Source of the DNA: Candidatus Nitrosopumilus sp. SW
Lineage (GTDB): Archaea; Thermoproteota; Nitrososphaeria; Nitrososphaerales; Nitrosopumilaceae
NCBI RefSeq assembly: GCF_006740685.1
Contig: NZ_CP035425.1
Coordinates: 225,687-289,686, forward strand
Reading direction: 5' to 3'
DNA length: 64,000 nt
Within the stretch, counting starts at the first letter, position 1. Every line of letters begins with the position of its first letter. The notes beneath the pieces are model-generated. The model made no database searches. It was not told the origin of the DNA and saw only the letters and a list, made by a program, of their open reading frames with translations. Below are positions 26,501 to 52,899 of this stretch, one piece after another. The position numbers and the translations under genes were made by a program.

Positions 26501-27811
26501 GTGACTAGCAATCCACAGTTAGAGGAAAGAAAGCCACTCTTAGAGCAATTCAGAGAGACCAGAAGTAGAACTCTAGAATTAGTAAAAACTTTAGAAAAGG
26601 ATGATTTTGTGGTTCAAACTGCATTTTTCATGAGTCCGCCAAAATGGCACATAGGTCATGTTAGTTGGATTTATGAAGCAATTATGAGTAAATTGGACAA
26701 AAATTACGAATTTTATTCAAAAGAATTTTCAGAATATCTTAATTCGTACTATCAACAATTTGGAGTTCCACACGATAAAGGATTGCGAGGAGTAATTTCA
26801 AGACCCACAGTTGATCAGATTTTTCAATATTTCAATACAATCAATCAAAGAGTAGAGAAATTTATTGAAACCCAATCTTTGAATGATGAAGGAGTCAAAT
26901 TAATCACAATGGGATTCCATCATGAATGTCAACATCAAGAATTGTTAGTGTATGATTTACAGCATCTTCTTGCAGAACAATACAGACCAGTAAGAAAAAA
27001 CCAAATTCAAAAACAAAACAATGTTGAAAAACAAACTGTCGAAATAAAAGGCGGTTTATACACAATGGGATTTAATGGAAAGGGATTCTGTTATGACATT
27101 GAGCTTCCAGAGCACAAAGTTTACCTTAATGATTACAAAATAGATGTTTTTCCAGTTACAAACCAACAGTATTTAGAATTTGTTGAGGATGGAGGATATG
27201 AGACATACAAGTATTGGTTATCAGATGGATGGGAAAAAGTAAAAGCTAACAAATGGAAATCTCCAATGTATTGGGAGAAAATTGACGGTAAATGGCATGT
27301 CAGAGACTTTTTAGGAATCAGAGAGATAAATCCAAACGAACCAGTATGTCACGTTAGTTTCTATGAAGCTGATGCATATTGTAAATGGGCAGGAAAAAGA
27401 TTACCAACTGAAGCAGAGTGGGAAAAAGCTGCTTGTTGGGACGAGAACAAACAAGAGAAAACAATTTTCCCATGGGGAAATGAACAAGCAACAGAGAGAA
27501 AATGCAATTTACTTGAGTCATATCATTGGGGATGTACAGAAATAGGAACATATCCAGAAGGAAAAAGTCCTTCAGGCTGCCAACAAATGATTGGAGACGT
27601 ATGGGAGTGGACATCATCAGAATTCACAGGATATCCAGGATTCAAAACAGGATTTGATGAATACAATGACAAATGGTTTACAAATCAAAAAGTTTTGAGA
27701 GGAGGTTCATTTGGAACACCAAAAATGTCAATTCGTGGAAGTTACAGGAATTTCTTTAGATTAGATGAAAGATGGTTATTTTCAGGTTTCAGATGTGTTG
27801 AAGATATCTAG
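26501..27811 (+). CDS. egtB: EgtB-like iron-dependent sulfoxide synthase
   Basis: 436 aa with the two-domain EgtB layout: an N-terminal DinB-like four-helix part with iron-ligand histidines in KWHIGH (His50/53) and GFHHECQHQELL (His141, His145), then a formylglycine-generating-enzyme-like domain (ETKGGL-type start VEIKGGLYTMGFNGKGF, through FPVTNQQYLEFV, to GGSFGTPKMSIRGSYRNFF and GFRCVED). It joins a cysteine-derived thiol to trimethylhistidine with O2 in ergothioneine synthesis. No methyltransferase is fused, so it is not OvoA. SenA-type selenoneine synthase is an alternative. egtD is 2.2 kb away. Confidence 0.82.
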   Translation: MTSNPQLEERKPLLEQFRETRSRTLELVKTLEKDDFVVQTAFFMSPPKWHIGHVSWIYEAIMSKLDKNYEFYSKEFSEYLNSYYQQFGVPHDKGLRGVISRPTVDQIFQYFNTINQRVEKFIETQSLNDEGVKLITMGFHHECQHQELLVYDLQHLLAEQYRPVRKNQIQKQNNVEKQTVEIKGGLYTMGFNGKGFCYDIELPEHKVYLNDYKIDVFPVTNQQYLEFVEDGGYETYKYWLSDGWEKVKANKWKSPMYWEKIDGKWHVRDFLGIREINPNEPVCHVSFYEADAYCKWAGKRLPTEAEWEKAACWDENKQEKTIFPWGNEQATERKCNLLESYHWGCTEIGTYPEGKSPSGCQQMIGDVWEWTSSEFTGYPGFKTGFDEYNDKWFTNQKVLRGGSFGTPKMSIRGSYRNFFRLDERWLFSGFRCVEDI

Positions 27812-27878: not shown

Positions 27879-28358
27879 TTAATCTTGTTGAGTGATCACT
27901 TCAAAAGTAATTGGAAGATATGTCATTCCCTGATTACTTCTAAAAGATATTTTCCAAGTTCCAAAGAATTCACACTCACCACACTCTTCTAAATCACTTG
28001 AAGATACAGGAGTAAAGTAGTGATTTACTGCATTCTTTGATCCATCATATTGTAGTGAATGATGGATTACACCATCAGGACGAATAAAGTCAATCATTCC
28101 TTTGGAATCAAGTGGAATCTCATCTCCAATCAAAAATACTGTATCATTGACATCATAGGTGCCATCCAAAATGGCAAATGGTCCTGAATAGAGGTTATTT
28201 GGATAACCAAAATCCTCAGAAACAGCCTCAAGATTGGAGTTCAAAGGTACAGATAAAGAAGTTTCAATTGCAGAATCATCTAATACAAGATTGATGATTA
28301 TGGCAGATAGAATAACTAGAGGTATGCCATAAACAATCTTTGGGATTTTGGCATTCAT
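27879..28358 (-). CDS. Membrane-anchored hypothetical, last gene of the hsp20 chain
   Basis: 159 aa with one N-terminal membrane anchor (IVYGIPLVILSAIIINLVL) and an extracellular beta-rich domain ending in ITFEVITQQD. It contains CGEC in LEECGECEFFGTW and a motif pattern (YDVNDTVFLIGDEIP, GMIDFIRPDG) resembling thaumarchaeal immunoglobulin-like domains. Its ATG overlaps the TGA of the 42-aa zinc gene by four bases, making it the sixth gene of the hsp20 chain. No known family; envelope stress is an inference from context. Confidence 0.75.
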   Translation of the reverse strand: MNAKIPKIVYGIPLVILSAIIINLVLDDSAIETSLSVPLNSNLEAVSEDFGYPNNLYSGPFAILDGTYDVNDTVFLIGDEIPLDSKGMIDFIRPDGVIHHSLQYDGSKNAVNHYFTPVSSSDLEECGECEFFGTWKISFRSNQGMTYLPITFEVITQQD

Positions 28359-28483
28359 TGTTTTCCCTCTTTTAGATTGAATGTTACATCACATTTCATG
28401 CAGTGATATTTCTTAGATTGGTAGTTTTTCAATAAAATAGAGTGTTTGCAGCCAATGCTTGGTTTGGTAATCTGTTTTAGCAT
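28355..28483 (-). CDS. 42-aa zinc-finger microprotein
   Basis: Carries IGCKHSILLKNYQSKKYHCMK with ligands Cys-x-His and Cys-x2-Cys (GCKH ... HCMKC), a single compact zinc site, then DVTFNLKEGKQ. Its ATG lies inside the end of the previous gene (7-base overlap, GAATGCTAA), and its TGA overlaps the next ATG by four bases. The chain of overlaps and the intact ligand set support a real gene although it is only 42 codons. Confidence 0.65.
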   Translation of the reverse strand: MLKQITKPSIGCKHSILLKNYQSKKYHCMKCDVTFNLKEGKQ

Positions 28484-28671
28484 TCAGAATTACCTCCAAA
28501 ACATTTGCTGCACAAGACTTCACAAGAATCATTCAATGTTACTTGGACATTGCTTGACCAGCAACGATGGCATAGACCAACAAAAGTTGGAACATATAGG
28601 GAGGAATTGGCTCCCCATATGTTTGAACTAGGTGTTCTATGACTTATGCAAGTGCTGCGACTGTGTGACAT
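28477..28671 (-). CDS. 64-aa zinc-knuckle protein
   Basis: Contains LCHRCWSSN and VLCSKCFGGN, two CxxC knuckles about 20 residues apart, forming a zinc ribbon in the second half. The first 30 residues (SHSRSTCISHRTPSS) are Ser-rich. The start at 28671 overlaps the preceding gene by 28 bases, more than the other junctions, so the true start may be internal. Member of the hsp20 chain. No family assigned. Confidence 0.6.
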   Translation of the reverse strand: MSHSRSTCISHRTPSSNIWGANSSLYVPTFVGLCHRCWSSNVQVTLNDSCEVLCSKCFGGNSEC

Positions 28672-28826
28672 AGCATCTCCTCATTGTACATGCATTGGCT
28701 GTGAAATCTTACTTCAGTTGGTTGCAAACATTTCGTACAAACTAGCTGAACTGGTTGATGGCAATGCAAGCATTGCTTTTCTATATCCAGTTCTCCACCA
28801 CATTGTCTACACAAAGTGTCTGGCAT
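28644..28826 (-). CDS. 60-aa double zinc-site protein (paralogue of 52684 gene)
   Basis: Ligand pattern CRQCGG, CLHC, CTKC and FHSQC: Cys6, Cys9, Cys19, Cys22, Cys30, Cys33, His42, Cys45. The same eight positions recur in the 71-aa protein at 52684-52899, and both open MPD, so they are paralogues and bind probably two zinc ions. A ribosome-binding-like GAGGTG lies 9 bases before the ATG. It is third in the hsp20 chain. Function unknown; a protein-interaction module is likely. Confidence 0.75.
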   Translation of the reverse strand: MPDTLCRQCGGELDIEKQCLHCHQPVQLVCTKCLQPTEVRFHSQCMYNEEMLCHTVAALA

Positions 28827-28837
28827 TTTTGTTCACC

Positions 28838-28960
28838 TCAGGGGAAGTTTCTCCTACCAAACTTCCATTTGGAAAAAACTTCCTCGCATTCTGAAGAAAC
28901 TCTTTCCACTGAAGATTTGAGAGAGTCTCTGACTTGTTTTAGGGATGAATTACAGTTCAT
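28838..28960 (-). CDS. 40-aa small protein after hsp20
   Basis: An ATG frame of 40 codons 15 bases after the hsp20 stop, preceded by a clear GGAGG about 7 bases from the ATG, one of the few strong ribosome-binding sites in this window. The product (MNCNSSLKQVRDSLKSSVER ... then FSKWKFGRRN) is helical and ends basic, with Cys3 and one more Cys at the middle. No family. The ribosome-binding site and tight packing support it as real. Confidence 0.55.
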   Translation of the reverse strand: MNCNSSLKQVRDSLKSSVERVSSECEEVFSKWKFGRRNFP

Positions 28961-28975
28961 TGTTCTTCCTCCAGT

Positions 28976-29467
28976 TTATTCAACTGACACTAGCTTGCCT
29001 TGAGGTTTTTCCTTGGCAAGTGAAATTGTCAGTTCCAAGACTCCGTTTGTGTATCTGGCTTTTGCAGAATTTTCATCTACTTTTGATGGTAGAGGAATCT
29101 TCTTTTCGTATTTTCTTTCTCCATGCTCGGCTGAAAGCAGTACTAGTTTATCTGACACATTTAGTTTGATGTCAGACTTTTCAATTCCTGGCATCTCTGA
29201 GACAATTTTGAGAGTACGTTCTTTGTCATTGACTGAAACGTCAACATATGGATCTCTCACTGTTGAATCTGCAAGAGAGTCAGTTGGTTTTGTATTTCCC
29301 CATTCAGTTACATGAGGAATGCCATCTTCACCTACAGTCTTTACGTAACCATAGTAGTATGGTCCAAAGGTTTGGACTGTTTTATTTGGATTTTCGAAAA
29401 CATCTCCCATTGAAAAAAAGGGGCTCGATAATCTTCGAAATGTTCTTTCAAAGTGGTCATCAAACAT
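28976..29467 (-). CDS. Small heat-shock protein (Hsp20/alpha-crystallin)
   Basis: 163 aa ATP-independent holdase. After a variable 70-residue N-terminus, the alpha-crystallin domain runs from about VRDPYVDVSVNDKERTLKIV through MPGIEKSDIKLNVSDKLVLL to the conserved KARYTNGVLELTIS. The C-terminal I-x-I anchoring motif is not obvious (tail KPQGKLVSVE), so large-oligomer assembly may differ. First gene of a six-gene reverse-strand chain of small zinc and membrane proteins. A TATA element lies about 40 bases upstream. Confidence 0.92.
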   Translation of the reverse strand: MFDDHFERTFRRLSSPFFSMGDVFENPNKTVQTFGPYYYGYVKTVGEDGIPHVTEWGNTKPTDSLADSTVRDPYVDVSVNDKERTLKIVSEMPGIEKSDIKLNVSDKLVLLSAEHGERKYEKKIPLPSKVDENSAKARYTNGVLELTISLAKEKPQGKLVSVE

Positions 29468-29500
29468 CTTTTAATCACCGAATTAGTGTAATAGTGATGA

Positions 29501-29512
29501 CAAAATATAAAG
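29501..29512 (-). promoter_or_regulatory. TATA box of the hsp20 operon
   Basis: On the reverse strand this reads CTTTATATTTTG. It is about 40 bases before the ATG at 29467, placing transcription start near 29482 and leaving a leader of roughly 15 bases that contains GGTGATT, a weak ribosome-binding site. Confidence 0.5.
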
Positions 29513-29591
29513 ATTTTGCATAAATTATTCATAACTGACATAATGTCATATACATGACAATATTAAAATATCCAAATGGTATTCTCATCTC

Positions 29592-29795
29592 ATGCAAAGT
29601 ACAATTTTAGAATATGAAAATCAGGCAATGCCAAGATCTCAAAGACAGGTAAGTTACTTTTGCAGATTATGTAGAGAGTATGGAATTAAAACAAGAAAAG
29701 CACATCTACAAAATTTCCATAATGCAAGTAGAGATACCGTAACTAAGAGAAGCAATAATGATCTTGTTGATGTGATCTTTATCGAATCAAGATAA
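29592..29795 (+). CDS. 67-aa C2H2 zinc-finger protein
   Basis: One finger: YFCRLCREYGIKTRKAHLQN then FH, giving C-x2-C-x10-H-x4-H, flanked by basic residues (RSQRQ, KRSNN). It could bind nucleic acid or protein. It is divergent from hsp20 and is followed 45 bases later by the 36-aa Cys-rich gene on the same strand. No named family, but the finger is unmistakable. Confidence 0.75.
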   Translation: MQSTILEYENQAMPRSQRQVSYFCRLCREYGIKTRKAHLQNFHNASRDTVTKRSNNDLVDVIFIESR

Positions 29796-29840: not shown

Positions 29841-29951
29841 ATGGCTACAGGGAAAGGTTGTAACATTTGTGAGAAAGAACATGACGGTGATTTTTACAGA
29901 TTTTGTAAATGTTCATGCCATGGAAGAATTGCAAGAGAAATTGTGGGATGA
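29841..29951 (+). CDS. 36-aa Cys-rich CxCxCH microprotein
   Basis: Cysteines in GCNICEKEH and FCKCSCHGRI. The CxCxCH ending matches the reverse-strand microprotein at 2261-2359 (CNCDCH), so the two probably belong to one unnamed family. The ATG at 29841 is preferred; an earlier ATG (29831) is in another frame. It probably binds a metal ion. It follows the C2H2 gene, possibly on the same mRNA. Confidence 0.55.
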   Translation: MATGKGCNICEKEHDGDFYRFCKCSCHGRIAREIVG

Positions 29952-29989: not shown

Positions 29990-31012
29990 TTAATTTTTAG
30001 AAACTAAAGTTAATGAAAAATATTTTTTGTCATCAAGCCATGTATGTTTTAAGTCAAATCCTACATCATCAAGAAGATCATGAATTTGAGACATACGGTA
30101 TTTATGAGAATACTCAGTATGGATTAATTCATCTTTTTTTAATTTTAATTCCAAATCAGATTTCGATATAACAATAGATTGATCAGATAATGATTTCAAA
30201 TACATTTCAATTCGTTGATCCTTTTCATTGTAAATTGCATGATGTGAAAAGTTTTTGAGATTAAAATCAGCATCAAGCTCATCATTGATTCTAGATAAAA
30301 CATTAAGGTTGAATTTAGCAGTCACACATTCAGAGTCGTTATAAGCTGATTCGAGAACAGATTTGTCTTTTACAAGGTCAAGTCCAATCAAAAATAAGTC
30401 ACCAGGTTTCATTGTAGAATATATTTTCTCTAAAAATTTGTAGCCATCAACAGGTGAAAAATTACCAAAACTAGAACCTAGAAAAACTATAAGATTGTGT
30501 TTATCATCATATGTTTTTAAAAATTCTAAACCACCTTCATAAGTATCAATAATGCCAGTAATGGTAAGATTCTTGTAATCATTTAGAAGTTCTTCAGAGC
30601 TTTCAGTAAGAATTTCAGAGATATCTATGGGAAAATATTCAGTAGAACTTTGAGAAGTTGTCAAAAAATCTAAGATTAGTCGTGTTTTTGTGGATGAACC
30701 ACTCCCTAGTTCAACTAATCGATATTCATCATCTAGAAATGAAGATAATTCAGTTTGTAATTTTTCTAAAATGGAAATTTCAGTTCTAGTAGGGTAATAT
30801 TCTGAAACAGAACAGATTTTTTCAAATAGGGCAGAGCCTTTTTTGTCATAAAAGAACTTTGGATGAATAGATTTTGAATTTGTGCCTAAACTCGTAGAAA
30901 TTTCTTCAGCAAATGTTTTTTCAATTTTTGTAGCATGAGGTTTGAAATATTGTAATCTAGAATCAACAACAAATTTTTTGTACTCTTTATTTTTCTGTAA
31001 TGTGTCGTTCAA
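29990..31012 (-). CDS. egtD: L-histidine N-alpha-methyltransferase EgtD
   Basis: 340-aa SAM-dependent enzyme that trimethylates histidine to hercynine, the first step of ergothioneine synthesis. Family-specific segments are present: SIHPKFFYDKKGSALFEKIC near the start, the SAM loop LVELGSGSSTKTRLIL, FPIDISEILTESSEELL, FLGSSFGNFSP and KYRMSQIHDLLDDVGF. TTG start at 31012. It lies 2.2 kb from egtB on the opposite strand, with the hsp20 chain and two zinc microproteins between. No egtC or egtE is seen in the window. Confidence 0.88.
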   Translation of the reverse strand: MNDTLQKNKEYKKFVVDSRLQYFKPHATKIEKTFAEEISTSLGTNSKSIHPKFFYDKKGSALFEKICSVSEYYPTRTEISILEKLQTELSSFLDDEYRLVELGSGSSTKTRLILDFLTTSQSSTEYFPIDISEILTESSEELLNDYKNLTITGIIDTYEGGLEFLKTYDDKHNLIVFLGSSFGNFSPVDGYKFLEKIYSTMKPGDLFLIGLDLVKDKSVLESAYNDSECVTAKFNLNVLSRINDELDADFNLKNFSHHAIYNEKDQRIEMYLKSLSDQSIVISKSDLELKLKKDELIHTEYSHKYRMSQIHDLLDDVGFDLKHTWLDDKKYFSLTLVSKN

Positions 31013-52683: not shown

Positions 52684-52899
52684 TCAAGCCATGGCAACTA
52701 CCCTAGAGTAGTTGCCAGACTTGAAAAAGGGCACGGTATTGGTCTGGTTTGTCTCAGCAGACATACAAATTGAATGAAATTGCTCAGTTGTGCTAAGGGC
52801 ACAATCTTGACAAATCATACTGTTTGGTTTCATGCAATGAGCACATTTTGTATGCTCTGTTAGTTTTCCACCACAGTTTCTACATGATTCATCAGGCAT
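52684..52899 (-). CDS. 71-aa double zinc-site protein (paralogue of 28644 gene)
   Basis: Same ligand map as the hsp20-chain protein: CRNCGG, CAHC, CQDC, FHSIC (Cys6, 9, 19, 22, 30, 33, His42, Cys45). The tail after residue 46 differs and is longer (TVPFFKSGNYSRVVAMA). The last codons form a perfect hairpin in the DNA (52693-52716). A TATA-like CTTATATTC about 30 bases before the ATG suggests its own leaderless mRNA, so unlike its paralogue it is free-standing. Confidence 0.75.
   Translation of the reverse strand: MPDESCRNCGGKLTEHTKCAHCMKPNSMICQDCALSTTEQFHSICMSAETNQTNTVPFFKSGNYSRVVAMA
52693..52716. other. Perfect hairpin at the 3' end of the zinc gene
   Basis: Arms ggcaactac (52693-52701) and gtagttgcc (52708-52716) enclose the six-base loop cctaga. 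It lies within the last codons of the 52684-52899 gene. It may act as an mRNA-stability or transcription-termination structure; no T-run follows directly on the coding strand. Confidence 0.5.

Follow-up and report, generated by a model that had tools for sequence, protein, structure and literature searches.

A second, diverged Hsp20 heads a conserved cluster of microprotein genes behind an hsp20-type promoter element in Candidatus Nitrosopumilus sp. SW

The genes for Hsp20-2, p40 and p60 lie tightly packed in a single conserved cluster, which in some species also includes p52, p64, p42 and p159. The promoter of this operon carries a palindromic element seen otherwise only before the core hsp20, the gene that belongs to the hsp20-CDC48 cluster. 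We propose, with a probability of roughly 0.6, that this is a stress-inducible operon with a second, diverged Hsp20 at its head, in which a repressor would act at the palindrome and the microproteins would serve as accessories of the holdase. The stretch analysed here (the window, 64,000 nucleotides) covers positions 225687-289686 of a 1.50 Mb single-contig genome, and its features are collected in Table 1. An earlier note on this DNA had described a six-gene chain headed by hsp20, in which the 40-aa gene follows a strong GGAGG site. All six ORFs were verified in the sequence, with lengths, coordinates and overlaps (28, 7 and 4 bases for p60/p64, p64/p42 and p42/p159, respectively) exactly as described there, and p40 is indeed preceded by GGAGG. 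The remaining junctions, hsp20-p40 and p40-p60, span 15 and 11 bases, so that an intergenic promoter has no space inside the chain. To this picture we add p52, the divergently transcribed C2H2-type p67, both operators and the placing of the Hsp20 as a second, diverged copy.

Table 1 Features of the hsp20-2 operon and its divergent neighbours (window coordinates)
Feature	Position	Strand	Description
hsp20-2	28976..29467	-	archaeal Hsp20 paralog, 163 aa; PF00011, NF041800, clade support 0.98
p40	28838..28960	-	40-aa peptide, C-terminus KWKFGRRNFP; GGAGG site upstream
p60	28644..28826	-	60-aa double zinc-ribbon-like protein
p64	28477..28671	-	64-aa CxxC...CxxC protein; 28 bp overlap with p60
p42	28355..28483	-	42-aa CxH...CxxC peptide
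p159	27879..28358	-	membrane anchor at N-terminus, then beta-rich domain with CxxC
hsp20 promoter-operator	29487..29511	-	TATA (TTTATAT) + palindrome TGTCATCACTATTACA; 20 bp upstream of hsp20 ATG
p67 promoter-operator	29544..29570	+	TGTCATATACATGACA adjoining TATA (ATATTAAAATA)
p67	29592..29795	+	67-aa C2H2-type zinc-finger-like protein, divergent from hsp20
p36	29841..29951	+	36-aa Cys/His-rich peptide, downstream of p67

Hsp20-2 passes the test for an alpha-crystallin domain (PF00011, 41.8 bits against a cut-off of 20.8) and scores 173.4 bits against the archaeal Hsp20 model of NCBIfam, NF041800, for which the cut-off is 140. The genome holds five Hsp20 genes, and its core hsp20, which shares 52-53% identity with hsp20-2, precedes CDC48/VAT. 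In a tree of 69 Hsp20 sequences, all 28 operon Hsp20s fall into a single clade (support 0.98) with zero core members inside; phylogenetically, the operon Hsp20 is a distinct second paralog that has diverged from the core Hsp20.

The distribution of the cluster was followed by sequence searches with hsp20 in 61 relatives, with p60 and p159 in 95 genomes of the genus and with p40 in 250 genomes of the family, after which the regions were read. The consensus order is p67 (divergent), hsp20, p40, (p52), p60, (p64), (p42), (p159), where brackets mark genes present in some species. Defined as hsp20-2 together with p40 or p60, the operon occurs in 20 of the 95 genus genomes, a count that includes two special cases: G093, in which p60 is placed upstream of p67 and hsp20, and G035, in which p40 is present and a close p60 is absent. 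The cluster is also found in other genera (L102, L103, L110/L271, L270 and L272). This recurrence of gene order within and beyond the genus, together with purifying selection, argues that the chain is not a chance arrangement. Matches to p40 were found in 34 of the 250 family genomes, the strong ones adjoining hsp20 at every locus read. The core consists of p40 and p60, with p60 nearly always the next gene, while p64 (about 11 of the loci examined), p42 (4) and p159 become progressively rarer across species. The earlier note had made conservation of three zinc genes beside hsp20 a check of its proposal; this holds for p60, which is universal, and fails for p64 and p42. The strong variation between species after p60 implies that the unit can do without p64, p42 and p159.

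Such variation raises the question of whether only hsp20, p40 and p60 belong together, and the downstream genes are an unrelated, loose neighbourhood joined by read-through, with no single functional system. The genes after p60 differ by species (Usp, ArsC, a 90-aa membrane protein or p159), p64 is eroded in some of them, being truncated in G002 and lacking its first cysteine in G022, and the ergothioneine-type genes that flank the operon in its own genome do so there alone among the operon loci read. However, p159 follows p60 in seven species, the overlaps are conserved, and in G084 a deletion joins hsp20 codons 1-20 to p159 (L264, 2748-3616), so that p159 is retained behind the hsp20 promoter though the intervening genes are lost; in G104, p159 lies after p67. 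On balance we regard a loose neighbourhood as unlikely. Stress genes are found adjoining the operon elsewhere, namely a divergent thermosome gene (L272), Usp (G031 and G061), ArsC (G028) and a Dps-like ferritin (L271).

The most solid and most useful new element of the analysis is the operator. Upstream alignment revealed, 20-24 bp ahead of the hsp20 ATG, a TATA box with a palindrome directly behind it, and a second palindrome farther upstream; the core hsp20 promoters for which enough upstream sequence is available display the same arrangement of TATA box and palindrome. The expected frequency of the combined element, TTTATATNNTGTMATN4ATKACA (TTTATATNNTGTMATNNNNATKACA), is about 0.0005-0.001 per genome. 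Among the 95 genus genomes, 72 contain it, with one or two sites apiece, as do 113 of 300 genomes of the order, representing 18 genera, while the reversed pattern, used as a control, gave 0 matches in the same two sets. At 50 of the 51 loci read, the element lies 20-29 bp before the ATG of hsp20; the 51st is cut by a contig end and its hsp20 match is partial. Given an hsp20-specific element in this position, the operon very probably represents one hsp20-regulated unit, as far as sequence can tell. Twelve genus genomes have two sites, of which 11 carry the operon and the twelfth, G107, has a frame-damaged hsp20-2. About 1.4 exact TGTMATN4ATKACA sites are expected, and the one at position 771445 of G000, which falls within a coding frame, probably reflects chance. 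No match to the operator was found among the published copper-limitation promoter motifs of Nitrososphaera viennensis (PMC7785015). A candidate regulator was noted beside the core gene: an ACT-domain protein (L184, 10580-11245, plus strand; PF13840 just above cut-off, N-terminus weakly DUF7523-like) is encoded divergently from the core hsp20 across a common intergenic region, and likewise in L269.

The closest parallels are the Phr regulon of Pyrococcus furiosus and the HSR1 regulon of Archaeoglobus fulgidus, in which a palindromic operator also sits at or downstream of the hsp20 TATA box. Phr covers the start site and blocks the polymerase (PMC9133787), and the targets of Phr and HSR1 are a small heat-shock protein and an AAA ATPase (PMC10653856). 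A comparable pairing is seen here, in that hsp20-2 and the core hsp20, which precedes a CDC48/VAT-type AAA ATPase, both have the element. The Nitrosopumilus system nevertheless differs in its operator sequence (TGTMATN4ATKACA), in the restriction of the element to hsp20, p67 having its own variant, and in its thaumarchaeal host. The core hsp20-cdc48 cluster itself has a homologous Hsp20 and an identical promoter element, and differs from the operon in having the CDC48 ATPase downstream and no microproteins. In our literature search, archaeal heat-shock regulators were reported for Pyrococcus and relatives and for Archaeoglobus only, with none for Thaumarchaeota. The literature searched, which covers subscription journals thinly so that novelty is not proven, held no description of this operon or operator. 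Only a few Euryarchaeota have known heat-shock regulators, and an element characteristic of hsp20 genes in several families of the globally important ammonia-oxidising archaea (AOA) provides a handle for finding the AOA regulator.

That the small ORFs are genes is indicated by their substitution patterns. Median dN/dS is 0.17 for hsp20, 0.32 for p40, 0.21 for p52, 0.18 for p60, 0.37 for p64, 0.38 for p42, 0.26 for p159 and 0.09 for p67, and an excess of third-position changes is present in all ORFs tested except p42. By these measures the operon genes are under purifying selection, which for p42 is weakly shown. Searches of Pfam, NCBIfam and the PDB gave no match above threshold for p40, p52, p60, p64, p42, p159 or p67. 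In p40, residues K31, W32, G35, N38 and P40 are invariant in an alignment of 19 orthologs. At seven loci (L041, L042, L078, L102, L103, L045 and L108), a further membrane microprotein, p52 (VHAPFKKVVxFDLLCxAMGxPIGAG), is encoded either in the p40-p60 interval or immediately behind hsp20; L036, L039, L080 and L083 have related copies at a distance of a few kb. In L103, p40 and p52 form a single open frame, which could be an assembly error of one draft genome. The orthologs of p64 show a pN/pS of 0.45 and a third-position excess outside the overlap region. For p42, the ORF and the CxH...CxxC motif of the claimed 42-aa zinc finger are both present, but the coding signal is weak, with full-length orthologs in G067, G064 and L102 only and, across these three sequences, no third-position excess. 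The 159-aa anchored protein of the earlier note, p159, has seven operon orthologs, together with distant, mostly single-copy relatives in most of the genus, and its AlphaFold2 model, of low confidence (pLDDT 54), places a membrane helix at residues 11-27, followed by strands. A profile search of the PDB gave no relatives of p159.

Among the microproteins, p60 carries two four-ligand sets (C6, C9, C19, C22 and C30, C33, H42, C45) that are invariant in 23 sequences. The 60-aa protein had been claimed as a double zinc protein, and while its eight predicted ligands agree with this, its score against the DZR profile PF12773 (16.2 bits) falls under the gathering cut-off of 27.3; on sequence, p60 resembles a double zinc ribbon without being filed as a member of that family. 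Its AlphaFold2 model contains two short strands (pLDDT 74), the best matches in a fold search of the PDB are zinc ribbons, albeit weak (best E 0.32), and the weak PDB profile matches are to zinc proteins. The second claimed zinc protein, p64, is not a CCHC knuckle and has instead a ribbon-like CxxC/CxxC arrangement. Both p60 and p64 fit the description of zinc micro-proteins (<70 aa with at least two C-x2-C-type motifs), a group known from the C(P)XCG proteins of Haloferax volcanii, which are likewise <70 aa with paired CxxC and for which many deletion mutants have stress phenotypes (PMC6562870). The likeness seen is one of size and motif, and the operon differs in that one lineage has here become fixed behind hsp20, under the hsp20 promoter. 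A zinc motif in p60 and p64 is not proof of zinc binding, since several H. volcanii C(P)XCG proteins are reported to bind none (PMC11241148). In AOA, p60 belongs to a wider family of zinc-type proteins (MPDxxCRxCGG...FHSxC, about 60-73 aa) which, where it occurs, numbers 1-9 copies in a genome. Identity between p60 and the other copies is roughly 30-48%, and the copies read outside the operon, which make up most of L106-L141, have no hsp20 adjoining. A 71-aa paralog, 43% identical, is encoded within the window at 52684-52899 (minus strand).

The invariance of the p60 ligands, the CxxC pairs of p64, p42 and p159, and the ArsC, Trx-like or ferritin genes that adjoin the operon in some species would also suit a zinc or redox buffer, whose proteins store zinc or capture metal from damaged proteins while Hsp20 is merely co-induced by the same stress. 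Two sites per 60 aa, however, is the arrangement of structural zinc ribbons, unlike that of Cys-dense metallothioneins; p40 and p52 have no cysteine that is common to all p40 orthologs or acts in a ligand pair, and the operator is tied to hsp20 genes rather than to metal-transport genes. We therefore consider a buffering role improbable.

The divergent gene, p67, encodes C24, C27, H38 and H43, which are invariant in 23 sequences. Their spacing, C24-x2-C27-x10-H38-x4-H43, may be compared with the C2H2 pattern C-x2-C-x(about 12)-H-x(3-5)-H, although p67 has no Pfam or NCBIfam zf-C2H2 match. Exact TGTCATN4ATGACA occurs just once in the genome, in the p67 operator, and across the 95 genomes each of the 25 sites with this form is located at p67. 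The second palindrome adjoins the p67 TATA box on its upstream side, even where p67 lies elsewhere; because it stays with p67 on relocation, the palindrome at 29544 belongs to p67, and was rejected as an activator site for hsp20. The gene is present in 19 of the 20 operon genomes and 17 of the 75 others (P = 3e-9, a significance inflated by related genomes), an association that includes genomes in which p67 is unlinked.

These features would be consistent with p60 (with p64) and p67 acting as transcription regulators that tune the hsp20 response in the manner of Brz of Halobacterium. In favour are the C2H2-like spacing, the basic stretch, the lowest dN/dS of the set (0.09) and the separate operator of p67, and effects on transcription are reported for small zinc-finger proteins of haloarchaea, Brz among them (PMC2253796). 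Yet many genomes that lack p67 or an hsp20-linked p60 keep the hsp20 operator, so that neither is a general regulator, and no helix-turn-helix or known DNA-binding family was matched in Pfam or NCBIfam. As sole regulator of hsp20, p67 is rejected, being absent from most operator-bearing genomes, and a tuning role for these proteins appears doubtful to us. Downstream of p67, p36 is 86-100% conserved in G000, G067, G084 and G064 (86-94% in three relatives only) and has no Pfam match. In genomes without the operon (L188, L189 and L192), p67 and a third, different Hsp20 gene, of 162 aa, are transcribed convergently, and p67 once more adjoins a heat-shock gene.

Returning to the stress-inducible operon that we favour, we tentatively propose the following mechanism. 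A single transcript would span the chain. By analogy to Phr and HSR1, a putative dimeric regulator would repress hsp20 at the palindrome until heat or another proteotoxic stress releases it; repression is suggested because the palindrome, situated between TATA box and start codon, covers the position where transcription is expected to start. Hsp20-2 would then hold unfolding proteins, and the co-made microproteins might act as its accessories. In this more speculative part of the model, p60 could represent a structural zinc module that makes contact with Hsp20 or with clients and might also sense thiol redox state; p40 together with p52, and likewise p159, could bring the holdase to the membrane and protect envelope proteins; and p67 may be a DNA- or protein-binding partner in the response. 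A link to membrane or clients is hinted at by the single p40-p52 frame of L103, by membrane segments in both p52 and p159, and by the neighbouring stress genes. The idea put forward earlier, of a stress system pairing a holdase with metal-binding peptides, survives in part: the conserved hsp20-headed operon, its hsp20-type element and its stress-gene neighbours agree with it, while only p60 of the three zinc genes is universal, and both zinc and the pairing were overstated. The operon offers a candidate partner set for a small heat-shock protein, a class usually acting alone or via general chaperones, and gives short zinc proteins a testable functional context. It is conceivable, though we think it rather less than an even chance, that AOA possess a dedicated heat-shock operator and a regulator unrelated to Phr and HSR1, controlling two arms, hsp20-CDC48 and a second Hsp20 whose co-evolved p40, p52, p60, p64, p159 and p67 are obligate membrane-targeting cofactors. 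If true, such a dedicated operator and cofactor suite would constitute a small heat-shock protein machine of a kind not described before.

Either side of the operon lie genes for EgtD (29990-31012, minus strand) and EgtB (26501-27811, plus strand), which exceed the cut-offs of the equivalogs TIGR03438 and TIGR03440, respectively, and as a pair suggest ergothioneine biosynthesis; with their position confined to this genome among the operon loci read, they were rejected as operon members. An EgtB-like gene is also found near a p159-like gene in G082.
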